A stretch of 64,000 nt of DNA from Amycolatopsis jiangsuensis (GTDB lineage Bacteria > Actinomycetota > Actinomycetes > Mycobacteriales > Pseudonocardiaceae): the NCBI RefSeq assembly GCF_014204865.1, contig NZ_JACHMG010000001.1, positions 7,218,501 through 7,282,500 of the forward strand. Reading direction: 5' to 3'. A program made the position numbers and the translations under genes. The notes beneath the pieces are model-generated. The model did not search any database, was not told the DNA's origin, and was given only the letters and a program-made list of their open reading frames with translations. Shown here piece after piece: positions 924 to 48,599 of the stretch. The stretch's first letter is position 1; every line of letters begins with the position of its first letter.

Positions 924-948
924 CTACCCCCTGACCGGACAGCTACAC
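924..948 (-). promoter_or_regulatory. Sigma-B-type promoter, leftward
   Basis: Read on the minus strand: GTGT (948-945), 15 bases, GGGTAG (929-924). It points to the small frame at 879 and matches the pattern seen before many genes in this window. Confidence 0.45.
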
Positions 949-995
949 CGGAAACGCGCGTTTCACCCTTCCGTGCGGGCGAGAAGAACTTCGGT

Positions 996-1020
996 GATTG
1001 ACCCCGGGCAGAGCGGGTAT
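996..1020 (+). promoter_or_regulatory. Sigma-B-type promoter before the AraC regulator
   Basis: GATT (996-999), 15 bases, GGGTAT (1015-1020). The start codon of the AraC-family gene is 39 bases downstream, leaving a short leader with a ribosome binding site. Confidence 0.5.
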
Positions 1021-1058
1021 CCGCCGCGCGCTGCTCGCGCGTTCGATGAGGTGATCCT

Positions 1059-2024
1059 GTGGCACACCAAGCGGGCGATCTGGTCACCCGGAGCAGCTTC
1101 CAGACGGAAGATCCTCAGCTCGCCGGGCAGTTCCTCGCCGAGGCCTACGCCGACAACGCGATGCGCGTGCGGGGTGTACCGCAGCGGTTCCGGCTGCGGC
1201 AGGTGCGGTATTCCGCCGGCACTGTGTGGCTCGACGACTACCGCAACACCATGGACGTCGCCTACCGCACCGAGCCGCTCGGGCACCTGCTCGTGGCGCA
1301 GGTGTCGGCCGGCCGGTTCGAGCGTTCGACGGAGGGGGTCACCGAACAGTACGGTCCCGGTGACGTGTTCCTGCTCGCCGAGCCCGACCTGCCGCACAGC
1401 TGCCGGTCCGAGGACGCCCAGGTGAAGCTGGTCGGGCTCGCCCCCTCGACCGCGGAGCTGGCCCGCCCCGACGGCGTGCCCCGGCCCCGGCTGACCGGCA
1501 TGCAGCCGCGCACCGCCGCGGACCGCCGTTCGTGGCGGCGCGGGGTGCAGTACCTGCAGGCCGTGCTCGCGGACGAGAACGCGACTGCCAGCCCGCTCGT
1601 GGTCGGCAACGCCACTCGCTTCGTGACCGAGCTTTTCCTGGCCACCTTCCCGCACACCGCAGTCGAAGAACCTTCGGTCACGGAACGGCACGACGTGAAT
1701 CCGGTGACAGTGCGCCGCGCGATGGCTTACCTCGAAGAGCATGCCCACGAACCCGTCAGCCTCACTGAGCTCGCCTTCGCGGTCGGGATGACCCCGCGCG
1801 GCTTGCAGCACGCCTTCCGCCGGCATCTCGGCACCACGCCGATGGCCTGCCTGAAACGGATCCGGCTCGCCGCGGCACACCGGGACCTGGTGAATGCGGA
1901 CCCGGACCGGGGAGACACCGTCACGCGGATCGCCTCCGGCTGGGGCTTCGCGCACCTGAGCCGCTTCGCCGCCGACTACCGCACCGCCTACGGCAGGCAT
2001 CCCGGCCGCACGCTGGCGAGCTGA
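1059..2024 (+). CDS. AraC-family transcriptional regulator
   Basis: A 321-residue DNA-binding regulator. The first about 190 residues resemble the AraC_binding_2/cupin-like ligand domain of NahR/FeaR-like activators; the C-terminal about 100 residues form two helix-turn-helix motifs, including PVSLTELAFAVGMTPRGLQ and the typical second-helix end GFAHLSRFAADYRTAYGRHP, which AraC members keep as F-x(3)-Y-x(3)-F/Y-G-x-x-P. GTG at 1059 was chosen because GAGGTGATC lies just upstream; no better in-frame start follows. It is monocistronic and preceded by a GATT-N15-GGGTAT promoter. The ligand and target genes cannot be read from sequence. Confidence 0.85.
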   Translation: MAHQAGDLVTRSSFQTEDPQLAGQFLAEAYADNAMRVRGVPQRFRLRQVRYSAGTVWLDDYRNTMDVAYRTEPLGHLLVAQVSAGRFERSTEGVTEQYGPGDVFLLAEPDLPHSCRSEDAQVKLVGLAPSTAELARPDGVPRPRLTGMQPRTAADRRSWRRGVQYLQAVLADENATASPLVVGNATRFVTELFLATFPHTAVEEPSVTERHDVNPVTVRRAMAYLEEHAHEPVSLTELAFAVGMTPRGLQHAFRRHLGTTPMACLKRIRLAAAHRDLVNADPDRGDTVTRIASGWGFAHLSRFAADYRTAYGRHPGRTLAS

Positions 2025-2112: not shown

Positions 2113-3225
2113 ATGCGGCGATGGGAGGCACGCGCCGAGCCGGTGGCCGGCGAGCGGATGCCCCGGCCCGTGCTGATCGTGGTCCGCGGGGACATCGACG
2201 GGGCGAACTGTGCCGACTGGGGACACCGGCTGCGTGAGCTGGCCGCGTCGTCCGGTTCGGACGTCCTGATCGACCTCTCCGGCCTGACTTTGCTGACCGC
2301 CTCCGGTGGCCGGGTGCTGGCTCACCTCGCCGAGCAGTGGGGTGCGGCCGGTCGCCGGACGCGGATCGTGGTGGGCGCCAACCCGGTGGTCGCCCGGGTC
2401 GTCGAGATCGCGGAAGCCAGGGTGGTGCTGACCGTGCACGAGTCCGTGGCCGCCGCGCTGTCGGCACCCGATCGGCCGGCGTCCCTGCCGGACAGCTGGT
2501 TCGTGATCCGGGAAGCGGTGCGGCAGCTGCAGGAGCAGTACGGGCTGTCCGACGCCGGGCCCGCGGTCAGCCTGCTCCAGTCGGTGGCGCGTGAGCACCG
2601 GATCCGGGTCCACCGGCTCGCGGCCGCCGCGGCCGGCCCGGCGTTCCCGGGGCAGCCGGCCGCCGGGGAGGCGGCCGAACCGATCCTCCCGTTCCCGGTG
2701 GGCGCCGTCGCCGCGCCGAAATTCGTGACGGTGCTCGACCACGCGCTGAGAGCTGCCCTGCGCGCGACGGAGACTCCGGCCGGCTACGCCCAGCTCGTGG
2801 CAGGCGGTTTCCTGCGGATGGCCAGCGCCCACGGGATCGGCCGGGACCTGCGGCGTTACCTCGGACAGCCGGGGCACGAGTCGACCCCCTGCGCCCGTGC
2901 GGCCCGCGGCGGAACCAGGGTGACCGTCGGCGACGTCCGCGAGGACGTGCCGCTCGCCGGGACGCCCGCGCTGGACATGCTGCGCGCGGAAGGCATTCTG
3001 TTCGCGTGCAGCACACCGGTCGTCGACGGGGAAGGCCGGTCCTGCCGTGCGGTCCTGTCCCTTGTGGACGGTCGTGCCGGACGTGGCCTCACCTACGCCC
3101 AGGCCGACGAGCTCGACCGGATCGCCGAGGCAGTGAGCCGCTGGGCCCAGTGGGACGACGACCGGCGCGTCCGCACCGCCGTGTCCGACCTGCACGCCGC
3201 TCTGGCTGCCGGAACGCCTTCCTGA
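2113..3225 (+). CDS. STAS-ANTAR-sensor regulator
   Basis: A 370-residue three-part protein. Residues about 20-115 form a STAS domain (VLIDLSGLTLLTASGGRVLAH region, with Thr/Ser at the usual phospho-acceptor turn). Residues about 125-180 (REAVRQLQEQYGLSDAGPAV and following) have the pattern of an ANTAR RNA-binding domain, in which short hairpins in nascent mRNA are bound to prevent termination. The remaining C-terminal half resembles a GAF-like sensor. ANTAR usually sits at the C-terminus after GAF, so this order is unusual. ATG at 2113 follows GGGGGAGCGAG. It lies just upstream of the PP2C multidomain gene in the same direction, so the two may be functionally linked. The domain reading is by pattern, not by profile search. 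Confidence 0.7.
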   Translation: MRRWEARAEPVAGERMPRPVLIVVRGDIDGANCADWGHRLRELAASSGSDVLIDLSGLTLLTASGGRVLAHLAEQWGAAGRRTRIVVGANPVVARVVEIAEARVVLTVHESVAAALSAPDRPASLPDSWFVIREAVRQLQEQYGLSDAGPAVSLLQSVAREHRIRVHRLAAAAAGPAFPGQPAAGEAAEPILPFPVGAVAAPKFVTVLDHALRAALRATETPAGYAQLVAGGFLRMASAHGIGRDLRRYLGQPGHESTPCARAARGGTRVTVGDVREDVPLAGTPALDMLRAEGILFACSTPVVDGEGRSCRAVLSLVDGRAGRGLTYAQADELDRIAEAVSRWAQWDDDRRVRTAVSDLHAALAAGTPS

Positions 3226-3252: not shown

Positions 3253-3277
3253 GTGTGGTCCGGGGAATACGGGGTAG
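3253..3277 (+). promoter_or_regulatory. Sigma-B-type promoter before the PP2C gene
   Basis: GTGT (3253-3256), 15 bases, GGGTAG (3272-3277), about 50 bases before the GTG start at 3329. Confidence 0.5.
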
Positions 3278-3328: not shown

Positions 3329-5344
3329 GTGGCCGACGAGGCGGACGAACGAATCGGTGACGCGCGGACCGTCCGGGACCGGTTCGAGTCACTGGGGCTG
3401 ATGGCGATCTCCTATCACGGACCGGAACTTCGCGTCGTCGCGGCCAATGCGGCGTTCCGCGCGTTCGCCGGCAACCAGCACCTGGTCGGGCACACCATCC
3501 GGGAGCTGTTCCCGGAATGGGAGGGACAACAGCTGATCCAGGTTCCCGAGCACGTTCTGCGCACCGGGGAAAGCCGGATCGGCCGGGAATGGCGCATCCA
3601 GGTCGAACGCGAGGACACCGGGCAAGTGCGCGAGTGCTTCGTGGACTACTTCGCCGAGCCCTACCGGGACACTGACGGCACTGTCGTGGGCGTCAACGGC
3701 TACTGCATCGACGTGAGCGAGCAGGTCCGTCGCCGCCAGGAAGAACAGCACCGCGCCACACATGCCGAACAGCGCTACGAACAGGCCCGTGAAGTCGTCA
3801 CCGAACTGCAGCGGCGGCTGCTGCCCTCGGGACTGCCGGTGCTGCCGTCCGCACAGGTCGCCGGCAGCTACCTCCTCGTGGACGTCGAGAACGCGGCCGG
3901 CGGCGACTGGTTCGACGCGATCCCGGTGTCCGCCGACCGCGTCGCGCTGGTCGTCGGTGATGTCGTCGGGCACGGGGTGGCCGCGTCCGCGGCGATGGGG
4001 CAGCTGCGCGCGGTCCTGCAGGACCGCCTCGACGAGACCGGTGATGTGCTCACCGCGGTCCGTGCGGCCGACCGGGTGGCGGACCGCGTTGCCGAGGCGA
4101 GCGCGGCGACCGTCTGCGCCGCGCTCGTCGACCTCGCCGACGGTACGGTGACCTGCTGCAGCGCCGGGCATCCGCCGCCGCTCCTGGCCGGCGCGGACTC
4201 CGCCCGGTACCTGCCCGCCTCCGGCAACGGGCCGCTGGGCACCGGCTCCGACTACAGCGTCGTGACCGACCGGCTCGATCTCGGCCAGGTGGTCCTGCTC
4301 TACAGCGACGGGATCCTCGAACGGCCCGGTCGCGAGCCCGCCGCCGCGACCGCCGAACTGGCCAGGACGGTGGCCGACGCCGTCGCCGGACGGGGTCTCG
4401 CCGACCACGAGCTGTCCGCGGTCGACCGGGCCTGCACGCACACCCTGGAACTCCTGGTCCGCCTGACCGGGCACACCGACGACATCACGTTGCTCGCCGC
4501 GCAGCGCCGTACCCCTTCCGCTCCGCTGCGCCTGTGCATGCCCACCGGACCGGACGCGATCGGCACCGCACGGCGGGACCTGGATTCCTGGCTGCGCAAC
4601 CAGGAAGCCGGCGACGAGGACCGGTCCGCGCTCGCGCACGCGGTGTCCGAACTGGTCACCAACGCCGTCGAGCACGGTCATCCCGACAGCACCGCCGGCA
4701 CCATCACGATCAGCGCCGACCTGGACGCCGGTGGTGTGGTCCGCGTCGTGGTCGCCGACGACGGGCAGTGGCGCGAACGCAGCCGTCCCGGTGACGAATC
4801 CTTCCGCCGCGACCACGGTCTCGGGCTCGCGATGACCGCCAGGTTCGTCGACGCCCTCGACCTCGACCACGACGAGAGCGGCACCACTGCGATCCTGCGT
4901 CACCGGTTGTCCCGTCCGGCGCGCCTGCTCACGACCGGGCAGCTCAGCGACGGCGTCCCGGTCCGGGGCCCCGACGAACTCCGCGAGCTGACTCTGGTCC
5001 TCGACCAGCCACACGCCCCGGGCAACCGGATCGCCGTGTACGGCCCGCTCGACGCGACGAACATCGACCACGTCGCCGCCGAACTCGATCGGTTCACCCT
5101 CGGCGGCACCCACGACCTGACCGTCGACCTCACCGCGGTCACCCACCTGGCGAGTACCGCGGTCAAACTGCTCTCGCCCGTCAGCGCGCCCGGCGACGGC
5201 CACCGCCGTCCGCCGCTGTGCCTCTATGCCCCGCTCGGCAGCGTCGCGCACCAGGTCCTGACCCTGGTCGCGGTGCCGCACACCACGACCGATCCCGATG
5301 TCGCCCCAGGCGCAGGGGGTTTCGGCGCACCACCGGACGGGTAG
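3329..5344 (+). CDS. PAS-PP2C phosphatase-HATPase-STAS multidomain protein
   Basis: A 671-residue soluble regulator combining a full partner-switching module. Order: PAS-like sensor (about 20-130), short coiled coil (about 135-165), SpoIIE/RsbU-type PP2C phosphatase (about 175-385; metal-binding Asp residues in GGDWFDA, VVGDVVGHG and GHTDDITLL), an RsbW-like GHKL kinase domain (about 390-515; N-box ELVTNAVEHG, G-box DHGLGLAMT), and a C-terminal STAS domain (about 555-665). PP2C domains dephosphorylate STAS antagonists, and the kinase re-phosphorylates them, so opposing activities and a possible substrate occur in one chain. GTG at 3329 follows GGAGGGTGGTGAGG. It probably sets the activity of a sigma-B-type factor, in line with the many such promoters around it. 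Confidence 0.85.
   Translation: MADEADERIGDARTVRDRFESLGLMAISYHGPELRVVAANAAFRAFAGNQHLVGHTIRELFPEWEGQQLIQVPEHVLRTGESRIGREWRIQVEREDTGQVRECFVDYFAEPYRDTDGTVVGVNGYCIDVSEQVRRRQEEQHRATHAEQRYEQAREVVTELQRRLLPSGLPVLPSAQVAGSYLLVDVENAAGGDWFDAIPVSADRVALVVGDVVGHGVAASAAMGQLRAVLQDRLDETGDVLTAVRAADRVADRVAEASAATVCAALVDLADGTVTCCSAGHPPPLLAGADSARYLPASGNGPLGTGSDYSVVTDRLDLGQVVLLYSDGILERPGREPAAATAELARTVADAVAGRGLADHELSAVDRACTHTLELLVRLTGHTDDITLLAAQRRTPSAPLRLCMPTGPDAIGTARRDLDSWLRNQEAGDEDRSALAHAVSELVTNAVEHGHPDSTAGTITISADLDAGGVVRVVVADDGQWRERSRPGDESFRRDHGLGLAMTARFVDALDLDHDESGTTAILRHRLSRPARLLTTGQLSDGVPVRGPDELRELTLVLDQPHAPGNRIAVYGPLDATNIDHVAAELDRFTLGGTHDLTVDLTAVTHLASTAVKLLSPVSAPGDGHRRPPLCLYAPLGSVAHQVLTLVAVPHTTTDPDVAPGAGGFGAPPDG
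5319..5344 (+). promoter_or_regulatory. Sigma-B-type promoter inside the end of the PP2C gene
   Basis: GTTT (5319-5322), 16 bases, GGGTAG (5339-5344); it overlaps the PP2C gene's stop codon. It could drive the DUF2188 and alcohol dehydrogenase genes. Confidence 0.55.
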
Positions 5345-6880: not shown

Positions 6881-6905
6881 GTTTAACGGCGAATCCACGG
6901 GCTAT
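6881..6905 (+). promoter_or_regulatory. Sigma-B-type promoter close to the glycosyltransferase start
   Basis: GTTT (6881-6884), 15 bases, GGCTAT (6900-6905). Only 9 bases separate the -10 box from the ATG at 6915, so the transcript is probably leaderless. A separate GGGTAC is at 6860-6865 without a good -35. Confidence 0.45.
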
Positions 6906-6914
6906 GAATCAGGC

Positions 6915-7850
6915 ATGAGGATCCTGCTCTGGCACGTGCACGGCGCGTGGACCGACGCCTTCGTCCGCGGCCGGCACGAGTACTTCGTCCCGGTGAGCGC
7001 CGAGGGCGCGCCGTGGGGACTGGGCCGGGCGGGGAGGCCGTGGCCGTCGGTGACGGAAGTTCCGCTCGAGCGGCTGGCCTCGGCCCAGCCGGACGTGGTG
7101 GTGCTGCAACGGCCGGAGGAGATCCCGATCGTCCGGCGGCAGCTGGGTTCCCGGGTGCCCGCGGTGTACGTCGAGCACAATGCGCCCCGGGACACCGCCG
7201 CGGGATCACGTCATCCGCTGGCCGGACAGGACGTGGTGCGCCTGGTGCACGTCACGCACTTCAACGCGCTCATGTGGGACAACGGGATCGCACCGGTGGA
7301 AGTGGTTCCGCACGGCATCCCGGACCCCGGGGAGCGCTACACCGGCGAACTCGCGGCAGGCGCGACGATGATCAACGAGCCGGTGCGCCGCGCCCGGGTC
7401 ACCGGGGCCGACCTGCTGCCCGGGTTCCGGGAGATCGCGCCGGTGCACGTTTTCGGCATGGGAACGGGGCAGCTGCCCGGCGGCCAGGGGGACGTGCCGC
7501 CGCCCCGGCTGCACGACGAGCTGGCGCGGCGGCGGGTCTACCTGCATCCGGCGCGCTGGACCTCGCTCGGGCTGTCCCTGCTGGAAGCCATGCACCTGGG
7601 CATGCCGGTGGTGGTCGCGGCGGCCACCGAGGCGCCGTCGACGGTCCCGCCCGAGGCCGGCGTCGTGTCCGCGGACGTGTCCGTACTCGCGCGCCGGTTC
7701 CGCGAACTGATCCACGAACCGGATTTCGCCGTGCTGGCAGGGAAAGCCGCTCGCGAACACGTGCTGCGTCACCACGGTCTCGGTGCCTTCCTGGCGCGGT
7801 GGGACCACCTGCTCGACGAGACCGTCCCTGCCCTGGAAGGAGCCCGATGA
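6915..7850 (+). CDS. Glycosyltransferase (GT4-like)
   Basis: A 311-residue GT-B fold glycosyltransferase. The N-terminal strand [12 protein letters not shown] begins a Rossmann-like domain; the C-terminal half has the donor-binding pattern [25 protein letters not shown], with the E-x7-E-like acid in [11 protein letters not shown] at 6915 was preferred to an in-frame GTG at 6873 because the domain begins there and a promoter -10 lies 9 bases upstream; there is no ribosome binding site, which fits a leaderless message. Its stop overlaps the next gene's ATG (ATGA), so the two enzymes are translationally coupled. The sugar transferred is unknown. Confidence 0.8.
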
Positions 7851-9058
7851 AGATCGCCATGGTGTCCGAGCACGCCAGTCCGCTCGCCGCACTCGGCGGT
7901 GCGGACGCGGGCGGCCAGAACGTGCACGTCGCCGAGCTGTCCGCGGCGTTGACCCGGCTCGGGCACGACGTGACCGTCTACACGCGACGGGACGACAAGA
8001 GGGCCCCTGCGCAGGTGCAGACCCCAGCGGGCTACCGGGTGCGGCACGTGCCCGCCGGTCCGCCGCGCGTGCTGCCGAAGGACGAACTGCTGCCGCACAT
8101 GGGGGAGTTCGGCAGCCGGCTGCGCGACGACTGGGTGGACGCTCCGCCGGATCTCGCGCACGCGCACTTCTGGATGTCCGGTCTGGCCACCGCGCTGGCC
8201 GCCGGCGAGCACGGAATCCCGACCGTGCAGACGTTCCACGCCCTCGGCGTGGTGAAGCGCCGCTACCAGGGCAAGGCCGACACCAGCCCGGCGGACCGGA
8301 TCCGGCTCGAGCGGATGATCGGCAGGCAGGCCGGCCGGATCGTCGCGACCTGTTCGGAGGAGGTGCTCGAACTGGCCCACCAGGGGGTGCCGCGGCACCG
8401 GATGTCGATCGTGCCGTGTGGTGTCGATCTGAGCCGGTTCGACGTGGACGGCCCTGCCGCGCCGCGGACCGCGGCGCGGCGGCTGGTCGCGGTCGGACGG
8501 CTGGTGCCGCGCAAGGGATTCGACCTCGCGATCGCCGCACTGCCCTTGGTGCAGAACACCGAACTGGTGATCGCGGGCGGACCGGACTCGGACGCCTTCG
8601 AGGCGGATCCCGAGGTGCAGCGGCTGCGCCGGCTGGCCGAGCGGCTGGGGGTGGCCGACCGGGTGCACCTGGTGGGGCAGGTGGCCCGCGACGACATGCC
8701 GGCCCTGCTGCGTTCCGCGGACGCGGTGGTGTGCACGCCGTGGTACGAACCGTTCGGCATCGTGCCGCTGGAGGCGATGGCCTGCAGCGTGCCCGTGGTG
8801 GCGACCGCGGTCGGCGGTCTCACCGACACCGTGGTCGACGGGGTGACCGGCCGGCTGGTCCCGCCCCGGTCACCGAAGAAGCTGGCCACGTGCCTGCGGG
8901 AGCTGCTCGCCGAACCGGCCGAGGTGGAAGCCTTCGGCGCGGCGGGGCAGGAACGCGTGCACGCACGGTACTCCTGGGACCGCGTCGCGGAGGAGACCTT
9001 GCGGGCCTACCAAGCGGTGCTCCCCACCGGGGAGCTGAGCCACGTCGGCGGACGCTGA
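7847..9058 (+). CDS. Glycosyltransferase family 4 protein
   Basis: A 403-residue retaining GT-B glycosyltransferase. The start [32 protein letters not shown] is the GT4/sucrose-synthase-like acceptor motif (GG-x-A-GGQ-x-VHV), and the donor domain has [18 protein letters not shown] and the E-x7-E motif in [24 protein letters not shown] at 7847 overlaps the stop of the preceding glycosyltransferase. The stop codon lies within a 54-base perfect palindrome that separates it from the convergent cluster. GT4 members use nucleotide sugars such as UDP- or GDP-sugars; the product is probably the same glycan as that of its neighbours. Confidence 0.88.
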
Positions 9059-9107
9059 CCGGGTCCGGGTAACGGCGTACGTACGCCGTTACCCGGACCC
9101 GGTCAGC
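9054..9107. terminator. 54-base perfect palindrome, bidirectional terminator
   Basis: Both arms of 27 bases match perfectly with no spacer (centre between 9080 and 9081, GCGTAC|GTACGC). The palindrome contains the TGA of the rightward glycosyltransferase (9056-9058) and, symmetrically, the TGA of the leftward one (9105-9103). It has no T-tract but would form a very stable hairpin in either transcript. Confidence 0.8.
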
Positions 9108-9999
9108 CGACGTAGCGGCGGGCGGCCGAGTTCCGCTGGGGTTCTTCGAGAAGCCGTAACCCGCGTTCGACCTCGGCCGGTACGACGGAACGTTCCCGCA
9201 GCACCCAAGGCAGGCCGCGCAGGCTTTCGGCCACCGCGGCCAGCGTCGTGCGGTCCCGGGGTGCGCTGGCGAGAACGGCGGCGGCCCGGCGGAGGACCGA
9301 CGGCCACGGCCGCCGCAGCATCAGCGTCCACAAGGTGTTCCGGATGCCCAGCGCCCGGCGTCGTCGGGCATCGCGCACGCGCGACGGGGCGTGGTGAATC
9401 ACGACGTCCTCCCGCCAGCACATCCACCAGCCGCGCGCGGCCAGGTCCAGCGCCAGCAGTTCTTCTTCGCCGCCCAGCCAGAACCGCGGCGAGAACCCGC
9501 CCACTTCCCGGAACGCGCTCACCCGGAAGGTGCTCAGCCCGGCCATGATGCCCAGCAACGCCGGACCGGGCAGCCAGTCCGGCGCGGGCACGGGCGAATA
9601 CCGCATCTCCGGGGTGATCGGGTCCTCCCGCAGCTCGGGTTCGACGAGGCAGCGTCCGGTGACGGAGGCCAGTTCGGGATTCGCGTCGAGGACGTCGGAG
9701 GCGCGGGTGAGCGCGCCGGGCTGCCAACGGGTGTCGTCGTCGCAGAACGCCACGTACGGCGTGGTCACCTCCTGGACCGCCAGATTGCGGCCCACCGCAC
9801 CGAGGTTGCGCGACGAACGCAGCAGCCGCACAGCGGGAAACTCGCGGGCGACCAGGTCCGCTGTACCGTCCTCGGAAGCATTGTCCACCACGAAGATCGG
9901 CGGCTGTTCGGGAAGCGCGGTGAGCTGCGTGAGCGTTTCCCGCAGCTGCTCTCGCCGGTTGTGCGTGATCATCACGAACGAGGCGCGGTGCACGTTCAT
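9103..9999 (-). CDS. Glycosyltransferase family 2 protein (A)
   Basis: A 298-residue GT-A inverting glycosyltransferase. The N-terminus FVMITHNRREQLRETL, the nucleotide-binding VVDNASEDGT and the metal-binding FCDDD triad (near residue 95) are classical GT2 features; LGGEEELLALDLAARGW marks the acceptor-side E-D motif. ATG at 9999 overlaps the stop of the upstream GT2 gene (ATGA). It resembles that neighbour closely in motifs and length, so the pair probably arose by duplication and may add successive sugars to the same chain. Last gene of the leftward three-gene operon, ending in the shared palindrome. Confidence 0.85.
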   Translation of the reverse strand: MNVHRASFVMITHNRREQLRETLTQLTALPEQPPIFVVDNASEDGTADLVAREFPAVRLLRSSRNLGAVGRNLAVQEVTTPYVAFCDDDTRWQPGALTRASDVLDANPELASVTGRCLVEPELREDPITPEMRYSPVPAPDWLPGPALLGIMAGLSTFRVSAFREVGGFSPRFWLGGEEELLALDLAARGWWMCWREDVVIHHAPSRVRDARRRRALGIRNTLWTLMLRRPWPSVLRRAAAVLASAPRDRTTLAAVAESLRGLPWVLRERSVVPAEVERGLRLLEEPQRNSAARRYVG

Positions 10000-10856
10000 C
10001 CCTCCAGCGTCCGGGCTTGCTGTTCCACGGAGTCGGGCAGTACCCGTCGTCGGGCGAGTGCGCGTGGGAGCCGGAGCAACGCCGTGGGCAAGGCGCCGAG
10101 CAACGAGGGCTCGTGTCCGGCGCTTCGCGCGAAGTGCCGGAGCTGGGTGGCACATACCGCGCCGGGCCGGCGCAGCCAGCCGATCAGCAGCTGGTTGCGG
10201 GCCTCCGCCCGGTGTCGCCAGCTCGCCGACGGGCGGGACGGCGACGGATGGTGGTGCGCGACCACGTCCGGCACGTAGCACAGCTGCCAGCCCGCGGCGG
10301 CCAGGTCGTAGGCCAGAAGTTGTTCCTCGGCCCCGAAATGCAGCATCGAACTGAATCCGCCGGCTTGCAGGAACGCGGTGCGGCGCACGACCGCCGAACA
10401 GGCGAGGAACCCGAGCACCAGGGGGCCGGGCGCGTCCGCCGGAGTCCCGAGTGGACTGTGTTCGAGTGCCGGGGTCACGGGATCCTCGCGCTCGTCCGGA
10501 CCGACGAGCGTACGGCCGGCGATCAGCGCGAGTCCGGGATGGGCGTCGAACAGGTTCTCCGCCCGTGGCAACGCGTCCGCGGCCCACCACGAGTCGTCGT
10601 CGCTGAACGCCACGTACGGTGTCCGGGCTGCGATGACCCCCTGCGTACGGGCGGCGGCGCCGTGGTTGCGGGGGCTGCGGATCACCCGGACGCCTTCGCC
10701 TTCGTATGAAGCGGCGACCCGGGCGGTCTCGTCGACAGAACCGTTGTCGAGCACGATGACCGGTGGCTTCGGGTCCATTGTGGTCAGTCGATGCAGGGTG
10801 CGATCCAGTTCGCCGGCCCGGTTACGGGTGGCGACGACGACGGTGGTGCGGCTCAC
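9996..10856 (-). CDS. Glycosyltransferase family 2 protein (B)
   Basis: A 286-residue GT2 enzyme, paralogue of the downstream gene. Motifs: VVVATRNRAGELDRTL at the start, VLDNGSVDET, the FSDDDSWW metal site, and FGAEEQLLAYDLAAAGWQL. The GTG at 10856 overlaps the stop of the pyruvyl-transferase-like gene (GTGA) and its own stop overlaps the next ATG, so all three genes are coupled. A long upstream open frame continues in phase but consists of non-homologous sequence. Predicted cytoplasmic or membrane-peripheral, building an exported glycan. Confidence 0.85.
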   Translation of the reverse strand: MSRTTVVVATRNRAGELDRTLHRLTTMDPKPPVIVLDNGSVDETARVAASYEGEGVRVIRSPRNHGAAARTQGVIAARTPYVAFSDDDSWWAADALPRAENLFDAHPGLALIAGRTLVGPDEREDPVTPALEHSPLGTPADAPGPLVLGFLACSAVVRRTAFLQAGGFSSMLHFGAEEQLLAYDLAAAGWQLCYVPDVVAHHHPSPSRPSASWRHRAEARNQLLIGWLRRPGAVCATQLRHFARSAGHEPSLLGALPTALLRLPRALARRRVLPDSVEQQARTLEG

Positions 10857-11719
10857 GACAGTCCTTTCAGCTCGCCGACGAGTTCGCCCAGCGGTCCCGG
10901 AAACGGGTGCTCCCCGGCAGCCCTTGCCCGGGCTTCGGCGCAGCAGCACCAGTCGAGCCGGGCGGTGAGATCGTCCGGGGTGGAGTCGGCGGGCAGCACC
11001 GGCCAGTCGAGCACGGCTCCTTGCGCACTCACCTTCCCGCCACCTGCGATCGGGTCGACGGCGAGCACCGGGATGCCCGCCTTGAGTCCGAGGACGAGGC
11101 CGTGCAGCCGCGTGCTGACCACCACGTCCACCCGGGACAGCACGGCGACGAACTGGTCCGGTGTCGCGCAGTGCCGCCAGTCGTCGGTGGCCAGCCGGGT
11201 GTCGAGCGGGATCCGTCCGCAGTCGACCGAACGCAGCCACTCGGTGAGTGTGTCGTGCACCGCCGAATGCCGGCGTGCGTCGCCGTATTCCGGCTGGTCC
11301 GGCGCGAGGACCACGGCCACCACGGGCGGCGAGCCGACCCGGCCGGCCAGGGAGAGGTCGGCGCTGCGGGCGTCGCCGTCGTCGCGGGGGAACACCGCGT
11401 CGAAACCGGTCGCCGCGGGGTCGGCCGGATCCGGTACGGAGACGCCGACGGCGATTCGGGCGCAGCCCGCGTACCGTTCGTGCAGCTCCCGGACCTGGTC
11501 GCCGTGCAGGGGCCCGCAGGCGAACACGAGGTGGGTGAAGTCCTCCGGGGGACAGTCGTCGAGCGACGGTTCGCCGGGGAGGAATCCGGGACTCCACGCG
11601 GTCACGTGGGCGATCCCGGCCTCGGTGAGGGTGTCGCTCACCGCGTGCAGGCTCAGCACGTCGCCCGCGGAGGCTTCACCGCGGGTGAATCCGGCCCAGC
11701 CGGTCAGCAGTACTCGCAT
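10853..11719 (-). CDS. Polysaccharide pyruvyl transferase family protein
   Basis: A 288-residue protein of the PS_pyruv_trans/CsaB fold. It starts MRVLLTGWAGF, followed by an Asp/Gly segment (SAGDVLSLHAV) and, in the C-terminal half, VDVVVSTRLHGLVLGLKAGIPVLAVDP, the family's strongest motif (S-x-R-L-H-x-x). Family members transfer pyruvate from phosphoenolpyruvate to sugars of exopolysaccharides or cell-wall polymers; distant members may act as glycosyltransferases. No ribosome binding site precedes the ATG at 11719, and the -10 box is only 9 bases upstream, pointing to a leaderless transcript. It heads the leftward operon and diverges from the epimerase gene. Confidence 0.75.
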   Translation of the reverse strand: MRVLLTGWAGFTRGEASAGDVLSLHAVSDTLTEAGIAHVTAWSPGFLPGEPSLDDCPPEDFTHLVFACGPLHGDQVRELHERYAGCARIAVGVSVPDPADPAATGFDAVFPRDDGDARSADLSLAGRVGSPPVVAVVLAPDQPEYGDARRHSAVHDTLTEWLRSVDCGRIPLDTRLATDDWRHCATPDQFVAVLSRVDVVVSTRLHGLVLGLKAGIPVLAVDPIAGGGKVSAQGAVLDWPVLPADSTPDDLTARLDWCCCAEARARAAGEHPFPGPLGELVGELKGLS

Positions 11720-11728: not shown

Positions 11729-11753
11729 TTACCCGGGCAGGCCCCCGGTTAAC
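11729..11753 (-). promoter_or_regulatory. Sigma-B-type promoter, leftward arm of a divergent pair
   Basis: Minus strand: GTTA (11753-11750), 15 bases, GGGTAA (11734-11729), then 9 bases to the ATG at 11719. Its -35 lies in GTTAAC (11748-11753), which the rightward promoter also uses. Confidence 0.55.
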
Positions 11754-11771
11754 TGCCGGGTAGGCGGGTAC
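11748..11771 (+). promoter_or_regulatory. Sigma-B-type promoter, rightward arm of a divergent pair
   Basis: GTTA (11748-11751), 14 bases, GGGTAC (11766-11771), then 10 bases to the ATG at 11782. The -35 boxes of both promoters overlap in one six-base palindrome. Confidence 0.55.
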
Positions 11772-11781: not shown

Positions 11782-12756
11782 ATGGTCTTCTCCCACGCGG
11801 TCGTCACAGGCGGTGCTGGATTCGTGGGTGCGCGGCTGTGCGCGCAATTGCTCGACGAAGGATGTGCGGTGACCGCCGTGGACAACTTCGTCACCGCTCT
11901 GCCCGGTGCGCTGGACGAACTGGCCGGGCGTTCCGGATTCACGGTGCTGGAACACGACGTGACCGAACCGATTCCCGTCGCGGACGCCCCGGACGTGGTC
12001 TTCCACCTGGCGTCACCGGCGTCCCCGCGGGACTACCTCGACCGGCCGGTGGAAACGCTGCGTGCCGGGGCGCTCGGCACCGAGCACGCGCTCGCTCTCG
12101 CGGCCGGAGCCCGGTTCGTGCTCGCCTCCACGAGCGAGGTCTACGGCGATCCGCTGGAACATCCGCAGCGCGAAACGTACTGGGGCAACGTCAATCCGAT
12201 CGGTCCGCGCAGCGTGTACGACGAGGCGAAGCGCTACGCCGAAGCGCTGACGTTCGCGATGCGCCGCAGCCGGGGCGCGAACACCGGCGTCGCCCGCATC
12301 TTCAACACTTACGGCCCCGGCATGCGTCCCGGGGACGGCCGGATGATCCCGGCGTTCCTGACCCAGGCGCTGAGCGGGCAGCCGCTGACCGTGGCCGGTA
12401 CCGGGGCGCAGACGCGGTCGTTGTGCTACGTCGACGACACTGTGCGTGGTTTGCTGGCGCTGGCGTCCTCGGCGCATTCCGGCCCGGTCAATCTCGGCAA
12501 TCCACACGAAATGTCCGTCCGGGAGATCGCCGAGTACGTCATCGCGCTCACCGGATCCAGGTCGTCGATCGTGCACGTCGCGGCGGCCGTCGACGATCCG
12601 CACCGGCGTTGCCCGGACATCACGCTGGCGCGCCGCGTGCTCGGCTGGGCACCCACGGTGGCGGCCGGGGAAGGCTTGCGCCGCACCGCGGACTGGTTCG
12701 CCGCTGCGGTGAGTAGCGACGTCCTGGGGTTTCCGGCCCAATCCGTTTATCCGTGA
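11782..12756 (+). CDS. NAD-dependent epimerase/dehydratase, UDP-xylose-synthase-like
   Basis: A 324-residue extended SDR. It has the NAD-binding VTGGAGFVGARL (about residues 8-19), HLASPASP typical of UDP-glucuronate decarboxylases, catalytic STSEVYGD and YDEAKR, and NTYGPGMRPGDGRM. This subgroup converts UDP-glucuronate to UDP-xylose; the UDP-glucose dehydrogenase at 18074-19375 would supply UDP-glucuronate. GDP-mannose or dTDP-glucose dehydratases are less likely alternatives. The ATG at 11782 has no ribosome binding site and sits 10 bases after a -10 box, suggesting leaderless expression. It begins the long rightward glycan operon. Confidence 0.8.
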   Translation: MVFSHAVVTGGAGFVGARLCAQLLDEGCAVTAVDNFVTALPGALDELAGRSGFTVLEHDVTEPIPVADAPDVVFHLASPASPRDYLDRPVETLRAGALGTEHALALAAGARFVLASTSEVYGDPLEHPQRETYWGNVNPIGPRSVYDEAKRYAEALTFAMRRSRGANTGVARIFNTYGPGMRPGDGRMIPAFLTQALSGQPLTVAGTGAQTRSLCYVDDTVRGLLALASSAHSGPVNLGNPHEMSVREIAEYVIALTGSRSSIVHVAAAVDDPHRRCPDITLARRVLGWAPTVAAGEGLRRTADWFAAAVSSDVLGFPAQSVYP

Positions 12757-12769
12757 CTTCGCCGGGTAG
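12745..12769 (+). promoter_or_regulatory. Sigma-B-type promoter before the carbamoyltransferase
   Basis: GTTT (12745-12748), 15 bases, GGGTAG (12764-12769); the -35 overlaps the last codons of the epimerase gene. The start codon is 53 bases downstream with its own ribosome binding site. Confidence 0.65.
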
Positions 12770-12822: not shown

Positions 12823-14454
12823 GTGCGTTTCCTGGGCATCAACGCGGTGTTCCACGACCCCGCGGCGGCACTCGTGGTCGACGGGCGGATCGTGGCAGCG
12901 GCCGAGGAGGAGCGATTCAGCCGCCGCAAGCACGGCAAGCAGGCAGTGCCCTTTTCCACGTGGGAACAACCCGCGCAGGCGGCACGCTGGTGCCTGGCGC
13001 AAGCCGGGCTGACCGCGGCCGACGTCGATGCTGTCGGGTTCTCCTACGATCCCGATCTGGTGGAGCCCGGGCTGGCCGGGCACGACCCGAGCGGTGAGCA
13101 GCTGCGGACGGATTTCGCCCGCCGGGCACCGCTGTTCCTGCGGAGCGAACTTCCCGGACTCGACCCGTCCTCGGTGCGGTTCGTCCGGCACCACGTCGCG
13201 CACGCGGCTTCGGCGGCCTTGGCGGCACCGTTCGGCGACTGCGCGGTCCTGGTGGCCGACGGCCGCGGCGAGAGCACGTCGTACCTGGCCGGCGAATACC
13301 GCGAAGGCCGGTTCAAAGAACTTGCCGCACAACGGCTTCCGTATTCACTGGGGTTGTTCTACGAGGACCTCACCGAGCACCTGGGATTCGCCCGCTCCAG
13401 CGACGAGTACAAGATCATGGCGCTGGCCTCCTACGGCGCGCCGGTCTACCTGGACTACCTGACCGAACGCGTGCATGCCACGGGTGACGGCGGTTTCCGC
13501 ACCGAGCCGATCGACTGGGCCGCGCTCGCCCCGCACCGGCCCGCCGGCGAGGAACTGACCCGTCGGCACGCCGACCTGGCGGCGAGTGTGCAGCGGGTCG
13601 TGGAGAACGTGCTGCTGGACCTCGCCGGCTGGCTGCACGAACGCACCGGCCAGCAGAACCTCGCTCTGGCCGGTGGGATCGCGTTGAACTGCGTGGCCAA
13701 CACCCGCCTGCACGACGAAGGGCCGTTCGACCGGGTCTGGGTGCAGCCCGCGGCCGGAGACGCCGGTACCGCACTCGGCGCCGCACTGCAGCTGGCGGCC
13801 GACGCCGGTGACCAGGTCGAGCCGATGGGCGACGCCGGGCTGGGTCGCGAGTGGACCGACGAAGAGCTGGAAACCGTGCTGCGCGAGGCGGATCTGTCCT
13901 ACGAACGTCCCGAGGACGTCGCGGACGTGGTGGCGGAGGCGCTGGCCGAAGACCGGATCGTGGCCTGGTTCCAGGGCCGCGCCGAGTTCGGCCCGCGCGC
14001 CCTCGGCCATCGTTCGCTGCTCGCGCACCCGGGGCGCGCCCGGAATCTGGAGCGGCTGAACGACGTCAAGGGCCGGGAGCAGTTCCGCCCGGTCGCGCCG
14101 ATGGTGCTCGCCGGACGAGCCGGGGAGATCTTCACCCGTGGCCCGTTGCCCAGCCCGTACATGCTGTTCGTGCACGACGTCGCGCCGCGGTGGCGGGACC
14201 GGCTGCCGGTGGTGACCCATGTGGACGGTACCGCCCGCGTGCAGACCGTCGATCCCGCCACCGATCCCCGCACCGCCCGGATGCTGTCCGGATTCGCCGG
14301 CCGCACCGGGCTCCCGGTCGTGGTCAACACGAGTTTCAACACCGCGGGCCGCCCGATGGCCGATTCGCCGCGCGACGCGCTCGAATGCTTCGGTTCGGCG
14401 CCGGTGGACCTGCTGGCGCTCGGGCCGTTCGTGCTCCGGCGCCACCGCTGCTGA
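12823..14454 (+). CDS. Carbamoyltransferase, NodU/TobZ family
   Basis: A 543-residue O-carbamoyltransferase. The N-terminal Kae1-like ATPase part carries the metal-binding HHVAHA motif (near residue 123) and GGIALNCVAN; the C-terminal part has EFGPRALGHRSLLAHP and VVNTSFNTAGRPM, all typical of NodU/TobZ/NovN enzymes, which make carbamoyl-adenylate from carbamoyl phosphate and ATP and move the carbamoyl group to a sugar hydroxyl. GTG at 12823 follows GAAGAGG. Among heptose and glycosyltransferase genes it most likely carbamoylates a sugar of the encoded glycan; carbamoylated heptose is known in some lipopolysaccharides. First gene of a unit that continues to 19975. Confidence 0.88.
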   Translation: MRFLGINAVFHDPAAALVVDGRIVAAAEEERFSRRKHGKQAVPFSTWEQPAQAARWCLAQAGLTAADVDAVGFSYDPDLVEPGLAGHDPSGEQLRTDFARRAPLFLRSELPGLDPSSVRFVRHHVAHAASAALAAPFGDCAVLVADGRGESTSYLAGEYREGRFKELAAQRLPYSLGLFYEDLTEHLGFARSSDEYKIMALASYGAPVYLDYLTERVHATGDGGFRTEPIDWAALAPHRPAGEELTRRHADLAASVQRVVENVLLDLAGWLHERTGQQNLALAGGIALNCVANTRLHDEGPFDRVWVQPAAGDAGTALGAALQLAADAGDQVEPMGDAGLGREWTDEELETVLREADLSYERPEDVADVVAEALAEDRIVAWFQGRAEFGPRALGHRSLLAHPGRARNLERLNDVKGREQFRPVAPMVLAGRAGEIFTRGPLPSPYMLFVHDVAPRWRDRLPVVTHVDGTARVQTVDPATDPRTARMLSGFAGRTGLPVVVNTSFNTAGRPMADSPRDALECFGSAPVDLLALGPFVLRRHRC

Positions 14455-14488: not shown

Positions 14489-15049
14489 ATGGCAGATCAT
14501 TTCGCCGAACTCAGCCTGGCCGCCGAACGTCTGCGCTTCGCCGTCCCGCGGATCACCGCGTGGGGCGAGCGGCTCGCCGGAGTCTTCGCGGCCGGCGGCC
14601 GCGTGCTTTCCTGCGGCAACGGAGGAAGCGCCGCGGAAGCTCAGCACCTGACCGGCGAGCTCGTCGGCCGGTTCCGGCGCGAACGCCGCCCGCTCTCGGC
14701 GATCGCCCTGCACGCCGACACCTCGGCGCTGACCGCGATCGGCAACGACTACGGCGCGCACGAACTGTTCGCCCGCCAGGTCCACGCGCACGGCCGCCCC
14801 GGCGACGTCCTGATCTGCCTGTCCACCAGTGGCACCAGCCAGAACGTGGTCGCCGCGGCGAAGGCCGCGCACGAGCTGGGGGTCCGGACCTGGGCGCTCA
14901 CCGGCCCCGCGCCGAACCCGCTCGCCGCGCTGTGCGACGACGCCGTGGCGGTCGATGAGGCGAGCGTCGCCACCGTGCAGGAACTGCACCTCGCCCTCGT
15001 GCACGCGTTGTGCGAAGCACTCGACGACGCGCTGGGGGTGCCGGCGTGA
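14489..15049 (+). CDS. gmhA: Sedoheptulose-7-phosphate isomerase, SIS domain
   Basis: A 186-residue SIS-domain protein matching GmhA, which turns sedoheptulose 7-phosphate into D-glycero-D-manno-heptose 7-phosphate, the first step to activated heptose. Phosphate-binding motifs are CGNGGSAAEAQH (residues 42-53) and STSGTSQNV (112-120); IGNDYG is also conserved. ATG at 14489 follows GAGGAGG. Its stop overlaps the GTG of the next gene (GTGA), which supplies the following kinase and adenylyltransferase. Length and motifs are complete. Confidence 0.87.
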   Translation: MADHFAELSLAAERLRFAVPRITAWGERLAGVFAAGGRVLSCGNGGSAAEAQHLTGELVGRFRRERRPLSAIALHADTSALTAIGNDYGAHELFARQVHAHGRPGDVLICLSTSGTSQNVVAAAKAAHELGVRTWALTGPAPNPLAALCDDAVAVDEASVATVQELHLALVHALCEALDDALGVPA

Positions 15050-22592: not shown

Positions 22593-22616
22593 CTACCCGC
22601 CGTGGGTCGGCTCAAC
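22593..22616 (-). promoter_or_regulatory. Sigma-B-type promoter before the epimerase unit
   Basis: Minus strand: GTTG (22616-22613), 14 bases, GGGTAG (22598-22593), then 9 bases to the ATG at 22583. Confidence 0.5.
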
Positions 22617-28303: not shown

Positions 28304-28460
28304 GACTGGCCTCCAGTTGCGGAACCGGAGGACGAGGACCACCTCGCGGCAGCTCGTCACACCGGCCCGGGAAGGGCAATGGGCGACCGGCTGCAGTCTC
28401 AACCGCGCTACCGGTGAACTTACCCGGTTTCGGCGGATCTGACACTGCCGTACCACTACC

Positions 28461-29262: not shown

Positions 29263-29287
29263 GTTTCCGGACCCTCTCGCCGGGTAG
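29263..29287 (+). promoter_or_regulatory. Sigma-B-type promoter before the ChaB gene
   Basis: GTTT (29263-29266), 15 bases, GGGTAG (29282-29287), with the ATG 38 bases downstream. Confidence 0.65.
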
Positions 29288-35244: not shown

Positions 35245-35269
35245 TTTCCCCGTGAGCGTCCGGGCAAAC
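35245..35269 (-). promoter_or_regulatory. Sigma-B-type promoter of the dehydrogenase-P450-catalase operon
   Basis: Minus strand: GTTT (35269-35266), 15 bases, GGGAAA (35250-35245), then 10 bases to the ATG at 35234. The -10 differs from GGGTAN by one base. Confidence 0.5.
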
Positions 35270-36965: not shown

Positions 36966-36990
36966 TTACCCGCAACGCCGGCGGATAATC
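36966..36990 (-). promoter_or_regulatory. Sigma-B-type promoter before the stress SDR
   Basis: Minus strand: GATT (36990-36987), 15 bases, GGGTAA (36971-36966). On the plus strand GGGTTA (37001-37006) ends 10 bases before the MFS start, so divergent control is possible. Confidence 0.5.
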
Positions 36991-39504: not shown

Positions 39505-39827
39505 CGACGTTCTCCTTCCCGCCCGCACGCGTACGGCGGGCGTCACCCGCTCGCCGGGCTCCCCGACGGCGGGGCGGATTCTTCGTGGACAGTGCGCATT
39601 CGGTGCCGACGCCGTTCCGGATGGGTCGTTTCCCCGATCCGGTCGCGGTTTTTCGAGCCCGGGTAAATCCGCTGCCGGAGTGAAAACCGGCTGGTCTACC
39701 CGTTACCCACAGGTAGTAAACACGTTCTGCGGAAAGAAAAAACCTGGAATTACGCCCAATCCGGTGAGCCAGGTTGTCCCGAATGACAACCGACGGTGAA
39801 GACCACACCCGAAAGGGGGTGAGATGA
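39505..39827. other. Intergenic region between divergent genes
   Basis: About 320 bases without a gene. It holds the leftward promoter at 39696-39721, a second GGGTAA at 39659-39664 in plus orientation, an AT-rich patch near 39715-39750, an inverted repeat AACCTGG/CCAGGTT (39741-39747 and 39769-39775), and the ribosome binding site of the gene at 39828. Confidence 0.6.
39696..39721 (-). promoter_or_regulatory. Sigma-B-type promoter for the ferritin-like gene
   Basis: Minus strand: GTTT (39721-39718), 16 bases, GGGTAG (39701-39696). It would give a leader of about 190 bases. Confidence 0.45.
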
Positions 39828-40784: not shown

Positions 40785-40843
40785 CCCGCCCTTTCCGACC
40801 TTCACAAATCCACAATGGACACGATGGTGAGGAAAGGGAAGTC

Positions 40844-47118: not shown

Positions 47119-47140
47119 ATCCCCGGGAAGGGGGCGCACG

Positions 47141-48535
47141 GTGGAGGCTTCACGTACCGGCTCCGGCGGGCCGAGGATCGGCCGGGGCAGCCATGTCATG
47201 GGCGCGCTCGGCGGTGCGATCCGGGGATACGAGCTCGGCGTGGTGTCGGCGGCGCTGCTGGCGGCCAAGCCCGTGCTCGGCCTGGACGCGGTGACCACGG
47301 GCTGGATCGTCAGCTCCGCGCTGATCGGGTCCCTGTTCGGTTCGCTGGGCGCCGGTCCGCTCGCCGACCGGTTCGGCAGGCGGGCGATGCTCGCGCTGGG
47401 CGCCGTCCTCTACAGCGCCGGCATCCTCGTCGCCGCGTTCGCGCCCACCGCGGGGGTGCTGATCGTCTCCCGCATCGTGCTCGGGCTGGCGGTCGGGATC
47501 GCCACCGCGATGATTCCGGTCTACCTCAGCGAAATCGCGCCGGCGCCGCGGCGGGGCACCTTCGCCGGGCTGTTCCAGGTCATGATCACCATCGGGGTGC
47601 TGGCGGCGAGCCTGATCGGCCTCGCCTTCACCCCGAGTGGCGGCTGGCGCTGGATGTTCGGGCTCGGTGTGGTGCCCTCGATCGTCATGCTCCTCGGTTC
47701 CCTGCGGCTGCCGGAAAGCCCGCGATGGCTGGTCGAACACGGCCGGGAGGACGAAGCCCGTGCCGTGCTGGCCGGGTCGCGGTCACCGGACGAAGTGCAG
47801 CGTGAGATCGCGGAGATCCGCGCGGTCAGCACCGGGCAACGGCGGCGCGCCAAGCGGACCACCACCCGGCTCCGCTCCCGGAAAACGGTGCGGTTGCTGG
47901 TGATCGGCTCCGTGCTCGGCATCCTGCAGCAGCTGATCGGCATCAACGCGATCACCTACTACGCCCCCACCGTGTTGAAGGGCATCGGGTTCAGCGACAC
48001 CGCCGCGGTCACCGCCAACGTCGGGCTGTCCCTGCTCGGGCTGCTCGCCACCGTGGTGATGGCCTACTTCGTGGCCGACCGGGTCGGCCGCCGCATCCCG
48101 CTGCTGTGGGGAGCGCTCGCGATGGCGCTGAGCATGGTGGTCCTCGCGGTGGTCTTCCTCGGCACCGGGGACGGCCGGGTGTCCGGCGCCGCCGGGTACC
48201 TGGCCGTGGGCGGGCTGGCCGTCTTCCAGATCGCGTTCGCCCTGAGCTGGGGCGGCATCGTCTGGATCGTGCTGGGGGAGATGTTCCCGCTGGCGGTGCG
48301 GGGGCTGGCGATGGGGATCGCCACCTTCCTGACCGAACTCGCCAGCGTGGTGGTCAGCCTGGTCTTCCCGTCCCTGCTCGAGGCGGGTGCGCCGACCGTC
48401 TTCTTCGGCTTCGCCGCGATGGGTGTCCTGGCCTTCGCCTGGACCCTGTTCATGATCCCGGAAACGAAGAACCGCAGCCTCGAGCACATCGAGGAACGGC
48501 ACGCGCGCGACCGGGAAACCGCCACCGGGCTCTGA
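47141..48535 (+). CDS. MFS sugar transporter
   Basis: A 464-residue member of the sugar porter family with 12 predicted transmembrane segments. Signatures: GPLADRFGRRAML after segment 2, PESPRWLVEHGR after segment 6, QQLIGINAITYYAPTVLKGIGF in segment 7 (the QQ-x-x-G-x-N-x-x-x-YYA sugar-binding motif) and PETKNRSLE at the end. GTG at 47141 follows GGGAAGGGGG. Last gene of the LacI-controlled operon, likely importing the mono- or oligosaccharide freed by the GH2 enzyme. Confidence 0.88.
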   Translation: MEASRTGSGGPRIGRGSHVMGALGGAIRGYELGVVSAALLAAKPVLGLDAVTTGWIVSSALIGSLFGSLGAGPLADRFGRRAMLALGAVLYSAGILVAAFAPTAGVLIVSRIVLGLAVGIATAMIPVYLSEIAPAPRRGTFAGLFQVMITIGVLAASLIGLAFTPSGGWRWMFGLGVVPSIVMLLGSLRLPESPRWLVEHGREDEARAVLAGSRSPDEVQREIAEIRAVSTGQRRRAKRTTTRLRSRKTVRLLVIGSVLGILQQLIGINAITYYAPTVLKGIGFSDTAAVTANVGLSLLGLLATVVMAYFVADRVGRRIPLLWGALAMALSMVVLAVVFLGTGDGRVSGAAGYLAVGGLAVFQIAFALSWGGIVWIVLGEMFPLAVRGLAMGIATFLTELASVVVSLVFPSLLEAGAPTVFFGFAAMGVLAFAWTLFMIPETKNRSLEHIEERHARDRETATGL

Positions 48536-48572
48536 AGCCCGGATGCACGAACGGACCTCAGCGGAACGGCTC

Positions 48573-48599
48573 GTTGTAAACTCGCGGACCTGCGGGTAC
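48573..48599 (+). promoter_or_regulatory. Possible sigma-B-type promoter before the GAF-ANTAR gene
   Basis: GGGTAC (48594-48599) with GTAA (48576-48579) 14 bases upstream, or GTTG (48573-48576) 17 bases upstream. Confidence 0.4.

Follow-up and report, generated by a model that had tools for sequence, protein, structure and literature searches.

A probable SigF/SigB-type regulon island that takes in an ADP-heptose-type glycan cluster in Amycolatopsis jiangsuensis

The stretch of the Amycolatopsis jiangsuensis genome analysed here (the window; 64,000 nucleotides, C1:7218501-7282500 of 8.05 Mb) carries, between 6.9 and 27.9 kb, a putative ADP-heptose-type glycan cluster with glycosyltransferases, a carbamoyltransferase, GmhA-, HldE- and GmhB-like enzymes, two GT9 proteins, sugar dehydrogenases and epimerases, flanked by stress and regulatory genes. 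Genes of both kinds stand behind short boxes of the form GTTT-N15/16-GGGTA, which are very probably promoters of one SigF/SigB-type stress sigma factor, within a regulon island of ~85 kb. Positions without a contig name are those of the window; genes were called with a custom finder favouring starts with a Shine-Dalgarno box. The glycan cluster contains the following features.

6881..6904, plus strand: promoter box GTTT-N15-GGCTA before a glycosyltransferase gene, 10 bp before the ATG at 6915; weakly conserved
6915..9058, plus strand: two glycosyltransferase genes of the glycan cluster (Pfam), orthologues in 19 and 20 of 20 loci
9103..11719, minus strand: two GT2 genes and a polysaccharide-pyruvyl-transferase-like gene (Pfam), orthologues in 17-19 of 20 loci
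11730..11753, minus strand: promoter box GTTA-N15-GGGTA, 10 bp before the ATG at 11719
11747..11770, plus strand: promoter box GGTT-N15-GGGTA, 11 bp before the ATG at 11782, its -35 overlapping the divergent -35
11782..12756, plus strand: NDP-sugar epimerase/dehydratase family gene, NCBIfam equivalogs all below cut-off
12745..12768, plus strand: promoter box GTTT-N15-GGGTA (exact, 54 bp) before the carbamoyltransferase-GmhA-HldE run
12823..14454, plus strand: carbamoyltransferase (NodU/CmcH type)
14489..15049, plus strand: GmhA-like sedoheptulose-7-phosphate isomerase (SIS), best models below curated cut-off
15046..16410, plus strand: HldE-like bifunctional heptose kinase/adenylyltransferase (258 bits, curated cut-off 521)
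17149..18081, plus strand: GT9 heptosyltransferase-like gene
18074..19375, plus strand: UDP-glucose/GDP-mannose dehydrogenase family gene
22594..22617, minus strand: promoter box GGTT-N15-GGGTA before an epimerase gene, 10 bp before the ATG at 22583
25086..25109, minus strand: promoter box GTAT-N15-GGGTA before an aldehyde dehydrogenase gene (start 25052)
25115..25138, plus strand: promoter box GTTT-N15-GGGTA (exact), 11 bp before the GTG at 25150
25150..26613, plus strand: GT2 fused to a GmhB-like HAD phosphatase
26903..27904, plus strand: second GT9 heptosyltransferase-like gene

GmhA, HldE and GmhB all have family matches here, each below the NCBIfam curated cut-off for equivalogs, and Amycolatopsis relatives of HldE carry heptose names. 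Since these scores lie below the cut-offs for lipopolysaccharide (LPS) equivalogs, a heptose-containing product is likely rather than proven. The enzyme families are those of the Gram-negative LPS pathway for ADP-heptose (GmhA, HldE, GmhB and heptosyltransferases), from which the cluster differs in its scores, in the fusion of GmhB to GT2 and in the added carbamoyltransferase and pyruvyl-transferase-like genes. HldE relatives were found in 53/80 genomes of the genus and in 102/200 genomes of the family that were searched, the window's own genome being included in both sets. The stress and regulatory part of the window contains the following.

996..1019, plus strand: promoter box GATT-N15-GGGTA before an AraC-type regulator gene (start 1059), 1 mismatch, 39 bp from the start
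2113..3225, plus strand: STAS protein with a weak GAF match (Pfam)
3253..3276, plus strand: promoter box GTGT-N15-GGGTA before the Rv1364c-like gene (motif scoring)
3329..5344, plus strand: PAS-SpoIIE phosphatase-RsbW-like kinase-STAS protein, a relative of Rv1364c (Pfam; PDB 3ke6 at 299.5 bits, 3kx0, 3k3c)
5319..5343, plus strand: promoter box GTTT-N16-GGGTA (exact, 31 bp) before a DUF2188 gene (start 5375), overlapping the end of the preceding gene
28421..28445, minus strand: candidate promoter GTGT-N16-GGGTA before the STAS gene 27908-28303, 1 mismatch, 117 bp from the start
29263..29286, plus strand: promoter box GTTT-N15-GGGTA (exact) before a ChaB gene (start 29326) and an SDR gene
30626..35234, minus strand: catalase (30626-32728), cytochrome P450 and zinc alcohol dehydrogenase genes with overlapping reading frames
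35246..35269, minus strand: promoter box GTTT-N15-GGGAA before the alcohol dehydrogenase-P450-catalase run, 11 bp before the ATG at 35234
35279-35899: UDG-superfamily gene, downstream of the SDR gene
36967..36990, minus strand: promoter box GATT-N15-GGGTA before an SDR gene (start 36932; motif scoring)
39697..39721, minus strand: exact box GTTT-N16-GGGTA upstream of the ferritin-like gene 38485-39504, 192 bp away; doubtful

Because their reading frames overlap, the alcohol dehydrogenase, P450 and catalase genes presumably form one operon. The protein encoded at 3329-5344 combines PAS, PP2C, RsbW-like and STAS domains in one chain (STAS at 21.2 bits, below the Pfam cut-off of 22.6), as does Rv1364c of M. 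tuberculosis with its PAS, PP2C-type phosphatase, RsbW-like kinase and STAS. It differs from Rv1364c in that its gene stands behind a predicted SigF-type box. A second Rv1364c-like gene of the same genome (C1:452270-454219, 48% identical) stands without a near-exact box.

The original prediction had named fourteen starts behind GTTT-like boxes followed by GGGTA. A GTTT-N15/16-GGGTA core lies within 220 bp of all fourteen (14/14), matching exactly in 5/14 and with one mismatch in 9/14, and its spacer is N15 in 12 and N16 in 2; at the start at 39504 the match is exact and the link to the gene, 192 bp away, is doubtful. The box at 28421-28445 is an addition to that list. The proposed spacer range of 14-16 held for 15 and 16. 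We placed 65 of the genome's 71 exact sites relative to genes: five of the eight N14 sites lie inside called genes, one of them straddling the start, and none (0/8) ends within 115 bp before a called start, whereas 39/57 of the N15 and N16 sites end within 120 bp before one. The true spacers are therefore 15 and 16, and N14 was rejected.

Measured against shuffled sequence, the window has 5 exact matches where 0.14 are expected, and 0/100 shuffles reached 5, so the predicted enrichment was borne out. Genome-wide the exact pattern occurs 71 times and its reversed control 11 times. Two of the 71 sites lie in 16S rRNA, and a third shares the letters GTTTACAGCGTGGACTACCAGGGTA. This conserved 16S stretch matches GTTT-N16-GGGTA and is a trap for genome-wide motif counts; it turns up again, differing in one letter, in several other genomes. 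A GTTT-like -35 and a GGGTA -10 separated by 15 or 16 bases and enriched before genes fit the published promoters of the SigB/SigF class, as had been proposed. The forms described are GGWWT-N16-17-GGGTAY for mycobacterial SigB/SigF (PMC7693655), GTTT-N(14-19)-GGGTA for SigF of M. smegmatis (PMC4694148) and, for the SigB family of S. coelicolor, GGGTA preceded by GTTT or GNNT (PMC8346170).

The boxes are strongly clustered. Fifteen exact sites fall in C1:7173792-7258221 (84 kb), where 68 sites spread uniformly would give 0.71. Counting near-exact boxes (at most one mismatch) in the 150 bp before first genes, we found them in 29/51 upstream regions of the island and in 4/143 elsewhere (twelve other 20-kb stretches). 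They precede 12/25 units in the window's first 49 kb and 17/26 in the 45 kb to its left, with 1/18 further left. The right third of the window, said to be free of boxes, proved so (49-64 kb, 0/8). The reversed pattern gave no match in any set of regions except 1/143 in the other stretches. On the opposite strand of the same regions, boxes were found in 11/26 of the left island, 10/25 of window 1-49 kb and 3/143 elsewhere, in keeping with many divergent promoters in the island. The 48 kb first noted are thus the right part of a larger island that reaches ~45 kb to the left of the window and has its right end near window position 37-40 kb. Left-island genes behind boxes encode a molybdopterin oxidoreductase, a ClpC-like ATPase, an SDR, a FUSC protein and a TPP enzyme. 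At the right edge, the two genes called in window 39828-42223 (318 and 459 aa) matched no Pfam family. A second cluster of 8 exact boxes, including three divergent pairs, lies in C1:1709980-1761543 (52 kb), with near-exact boxes in 8/36 upstream regions and genes for a photolyase, a DUF4383 protein, a polyketide-cyclase-like protein and a luciferase-like monooxygenase.

The same wiring recurs in relatives. HldE had a match in 52 other genus genomes and in 94 family genomes outside the genus, of which 20 and 30, respectively, supplied the loci compared here; control stretches (20 genus, 10 family) were chosen at round coordinates, and the relatives are not mutually independent. In the 20 genus genomes a box precedes 108/173 units near HldE (53 exact) versus 1/230 (0 exact) in the 20 other stretches, with reversed-control counts of 2/173 and 4/230. 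In the 30 genomes of 25 other genera the figures are 107/285 (32 exact) versus 7/129 (2 exact), with 2/285 and 0/129 for the reversed control, and 29/30 of these HldE loci have at least one box.

Individual boxes are kept as well. The box of the carbamoyltransferase operon is present in 19/19 genus orthologues and in 14/19 in other genera, that of the NDP-sugar epimerase (11782) in 17/17 and 12/16, and that of the pyruvyl-transferase-like gene (11719) in 15/17 and 7/12. Within the genus, boxes are kept before 13/15 orthologues of the GT2-GmhB gene (25150), 12/16 of the aldehyde dehydrogenase gene (25052) and 6/8 of the second epimerase gene (22583). The box of the stress SDR (36932) is kept in 27/30 loci (the best 30 of 41 SDR loci, own included) and that of ChaB in 2/5 relatives in family loci. 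No orthologue was found of the AraC-type regulator gene (start 1059) in the 20-kb loci of 20 relatives, or of the STAS gene 27908-28303 in the 20 genus loci. Across the genus alignments, whose rows were picked for at most one mismatch, column identity is 0.88-1.00 in the boxes, 0.54-0.83 in the spacers and 0.59-0.76 in the flanks: the boxes persist while the spacers drift. Judged from these patterns, the ADP-heptose-type glycan cluster belongs to the predicted regulon.

Two architectural features stand out. Among 55 intergenic boxes of the own genome (the two clusters and the S1 locus described below), an ATG or GTG lies 10 bases after GGGTA in 13 and 11 bases after it in 8, while each offset of 0-9 and 12-21 has such a codon in only 0-3. 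Called genes follow the same boxes at 10-11 bases in 14 cases, at 12-21 in none and at 20-70 in 27. The gene finder's preference for Shine-Dalgarno starts accounts for part of the contrast between the near and far genes (0/14 vs 23/27) but leaves the simple tally of ATG/GTG offsets unaffected. In 20 relatives, ATG or GTG stands at offsets 10 and 11 in 31 and 23 of 131 boxes. With a start codon 10-11 bases downstream of about one third of the promoters, leaderless mRNAs would be expected from that share. The class itself is already known, with 24% of M. smegmatis transcripts leaderless (PMC6448022) and at least 14 targets in a SigF table of that species whose motif stands 8-11 bases ahead of the start codon (PMC4694148); its share here is a prediction.

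The second feature is the divergent pair. Exact back-to-back pairs occur in 24/80 genus genomes, own included, the own genome having the most (6) and the control none. At the 11719/11782 pair the two -35 boxes overlap, sharing the palindrome GGTTAAC. Where these genes are divergent in 16 genus relatives, both boxes are present in 15, with the same overlap in 3 and a gap of 1-2 bp in 12; in other genera both are present in 7/9, with gaps of 6, 6 and 1, and crossed in 4. At the 25052/25150 pair the -35 boxes are 5 bp apart, and 11/13 genus relatives have both boxes with a gap of 2-5; a divergent arrangement of these two genes was not found in the other genera examined. With the -35 boxes overlapping or almost touching, each of these two pairs probably has room for only one polymerase at a time, and two would exclude each other. 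The gaps of exact divergent pairs vary (2, 3, 3, 10, 10 and 26 in the own genome; 2-25 in 20 of the pairs listed from other genomes); conservation is locus-specific only, and a strict preferred spacing was rejected.

The own genome has two loci above the cut-off of the SigB/F/G family profile TIGR02980. The first, S1 (C1:862383-863234), has Pfam sigma-70 regions 2, 3 and 4 and is preceded by a gene with an RsbW-type ATPase domain (HATPase_c_2, 33.4 bits, cut-off 27.4), so that a SigB/F/G sigma factor with an RsbW-like partner gene is present; for the gene preceding S2 (C1:4812784-4813437) the same domain scores 20.8 bits, below cut-off. The anti-sigma gene that starts the S1 operon has GTGT-N16-GGGTA 10 bases before its ATG, and this box is found at the S1 operon in 30/30 loci (the best 30, own included), ~410-495 bp before the sigma match. 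Directly upstream of the operon, an aconitase-family gene (Pfam; C1:863653-865605) has a box of its own 10 bases before its start. S1 matches at E up to 1e-40 occur in 80/80 genus genomes, own included, the best being at least 61% identical in 79; in the remaining genome (G084) the only match listed is 52% identical and may be of the S2 type. In 13/29 genomes, HldE has a sigma gene from the S1 search no more than 60 kb away; these 29, own included, are the ones with rounded coordinates compared among the 53 with HldE. In two genomes (G011, HldE at C43:147152, and G065, HldE at C80:17088) a SigB/F-type sigma paralogue is only 4-5 kb from HldE.

The divergent start of the S2 operon is flanked on either side by GTTT-N16-GGGCA boxes, and GTTT-N14-17-GGGCA is enriched only 109 to 46 among the matches listed. 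Because its own operon has a GGGTA-type box in 30/30 loci and the S2 boxes read GGGCA, S1 is the likely reader of the island promoters. From the observed motif, its enrichment, clustering and conservation, and the gene families, we infer S1 as reader, stress as trigger and the identity of the glycan, as follows. At rest, the RsbW-like anti-sigma factor, whose gene immediately precedes that of S1, would keep S1 sequestered. Under stress, partner-switching proteins, for example the Rv1364c-like protein (3329-5344), would release it. RNA polymerase with S1 would then read the GTTT-N15/16-GGGTA promoters of its own operon, of stress enzymes (the catalase operon, SDRs, ChaB) and of the ADP-heptose/glycan cluster, whose products may make ADP-heptose and assemble a heptose-containing envelope glycan. 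In salt-treated Frankia CcI6, the genes for a heptosyltransferase and for a sigma factor with a SigF domain both rise (PMC5563000).

Several observations weigh against this reading. In the own genome, S1 and HldE are 6.4 Mb apart along the contig. A second sigma factor of the type, S2, is present and could read some of these promoters. The right flank of the island has near-exact boxes in 3/21 upstream regions, a little more than the background, which leaves the border slightly blurred. Before the GT2-GmhB gene the box is found in 0/18 cases in other genera, the stress SDR box is missing in 3/30 loci, and the motif of the glycosyltransferase gene at 6915 is kept in only 3/19 genus orthologues. 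Outside the family, five loci (one Nakamurella, one Micromonospora and three streptomycete) yielded 2 near-exact boxes in 50 heptose-locus units. Rv1364c-like genes occur in only 4/80 genus genomes, own included, and the best boxes of three other copies examined have 2-3 mismatches. Two extensions were rejected on these counts: spread of the wiring beyond the family, and feedback through an Rv1364c-like protein as a general feature, neither gene nor box being conserved.

Two other explanations seem unlikely to us, to a similar degree. One is that S2 mainly, or both sigma factors in turn, read the same promoters, the island being a developmental rather than a general stress regulon. The presence of S2 and the cross-recognition of promoters among SigB-family factors of S. 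coelicolor (PMC8346170) speak for it; however, the S2 boxes are GTTT-N16-GGGCA, whereas those of the two clusters and the S1 locus mostly have N15 with GGGTA (37 N15, 8 N16), and both the GGGTA-type promoter of S1 itself and the sigma genes of the S1 search near HldE argue against S2. N16 is commoner in the relatives' HldE loci than in the own genome (75 N15, 38 N16). The other explanation accepts the stress regulon and holds that the glycan cluster merely sits among its promoters, with mainly housekeeping expression to which the boxes add little. It would account for the absence of a box from the gene at 6915 in 16/19 relatives, but sits poorly with main glycan boxes that are kept almost throughout the genus while their spacers drift, and that are also found in other genera of the family. 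The original proposal that glycan synthesis is joined with stress genes is supported by the glycan boxes kept in 19/19, 17/17, 15/17 and 13/15 orthologues and the SDR box in 27/30 loci, and does not hold for the glycosyltransferase gene at 6915. It is hardly credible that GC-rich DNA produced these boxes by chance and that the eye picked them out: 9/14 do have one mismatch, and boxes with up to two occur in 31/143 control regions, but at one mismatch or fewer the counts are 12/25 vs 4/143, the reversed control gives 0/25 and 1/143, and the boxes are conserved in relatives.

The preferred reading, a SigF/SigB-type island read by S1, has close precedents. The SigF regulon of M. smegmatis shares the promoter GTTT-N15/16-GGGTA (PMC4694148, PMC7693655), a sigma gene behind an RsbW anti-sigma gene, partner switching, targets including ChaB, catalases, a P450 and aconitase, and a dense block, MSMEG_1766-1804 (PMC4694148); it differs in that this block lies at sigF, whereas S1 is far from the island. 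Heptose genes are absent from the extract of its SigF target Table 1 (PMC4694148) considered here. The SigB-family regulons of S. coelicolor share the GGGTA -10, a similar -35, and osmotic-stress and development genes (PMC8346170), and differ in having nine SigB-family homologues against two over the family cut-off here. In one named Streptomyces genome GTTT-N15/16-GGGTA was not enriched (13 vs 20 in the control, 6 of the 13 being the 16S letters), and its HldE locus had no box in 14 units. Because the motif is unenriched in the Streptomyces genome searched, mycobacterial SigF is the closer model. M. smegmatis thus already provides the promoter class, partner switching and the clustering of a SigF regulon, and Streptomyces the promoter class (PMC4694148, PMC7693655, PMC8346170). 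Searches of the open-access literature turned up no study that links SigF to heptose genes in Amycolatopsis or the rest of its family, and no earlier description of the glycan wiring or of the divergent-pair architecture.

We give even chances to a broader proposal: that across the Pseudonocardiaceae (the family being inferred from the names of homologues) a SigF of the mycobacterial type would directly control an ADP-heptose envelope glycan, partly from conserved divergent pairs whose -35 boxes overlap or lie at most 6 bp apart, with many outputs leaderless, the glycan being a stress-inducible surface layer made only on release of SigF. As part of the same proposal, the pairs would keep their arrangement through sequence turnover, as the palindrome GGTTAAC, as GTGT/GTTT 1-2 bp apart, or crossed as GTTTCACAC. 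If true, this would show divergent promoters of a single alternative sigma factor that are superimposed on each other and conserved in that form, and would broaden a SigF regulon so far described chiefly in mycobacteria and Streptomyces. NDP-heptoses are reported to be immune agonists in vertebrates (PMC11573728), and the timing of their production by actinobacteria would therefore be of wider interest. A large family of soil actinobacteria would, on this proposal, switch a heptose surface glycan with its general stress response, tying the sugar chemistry of the envelope to SigF.

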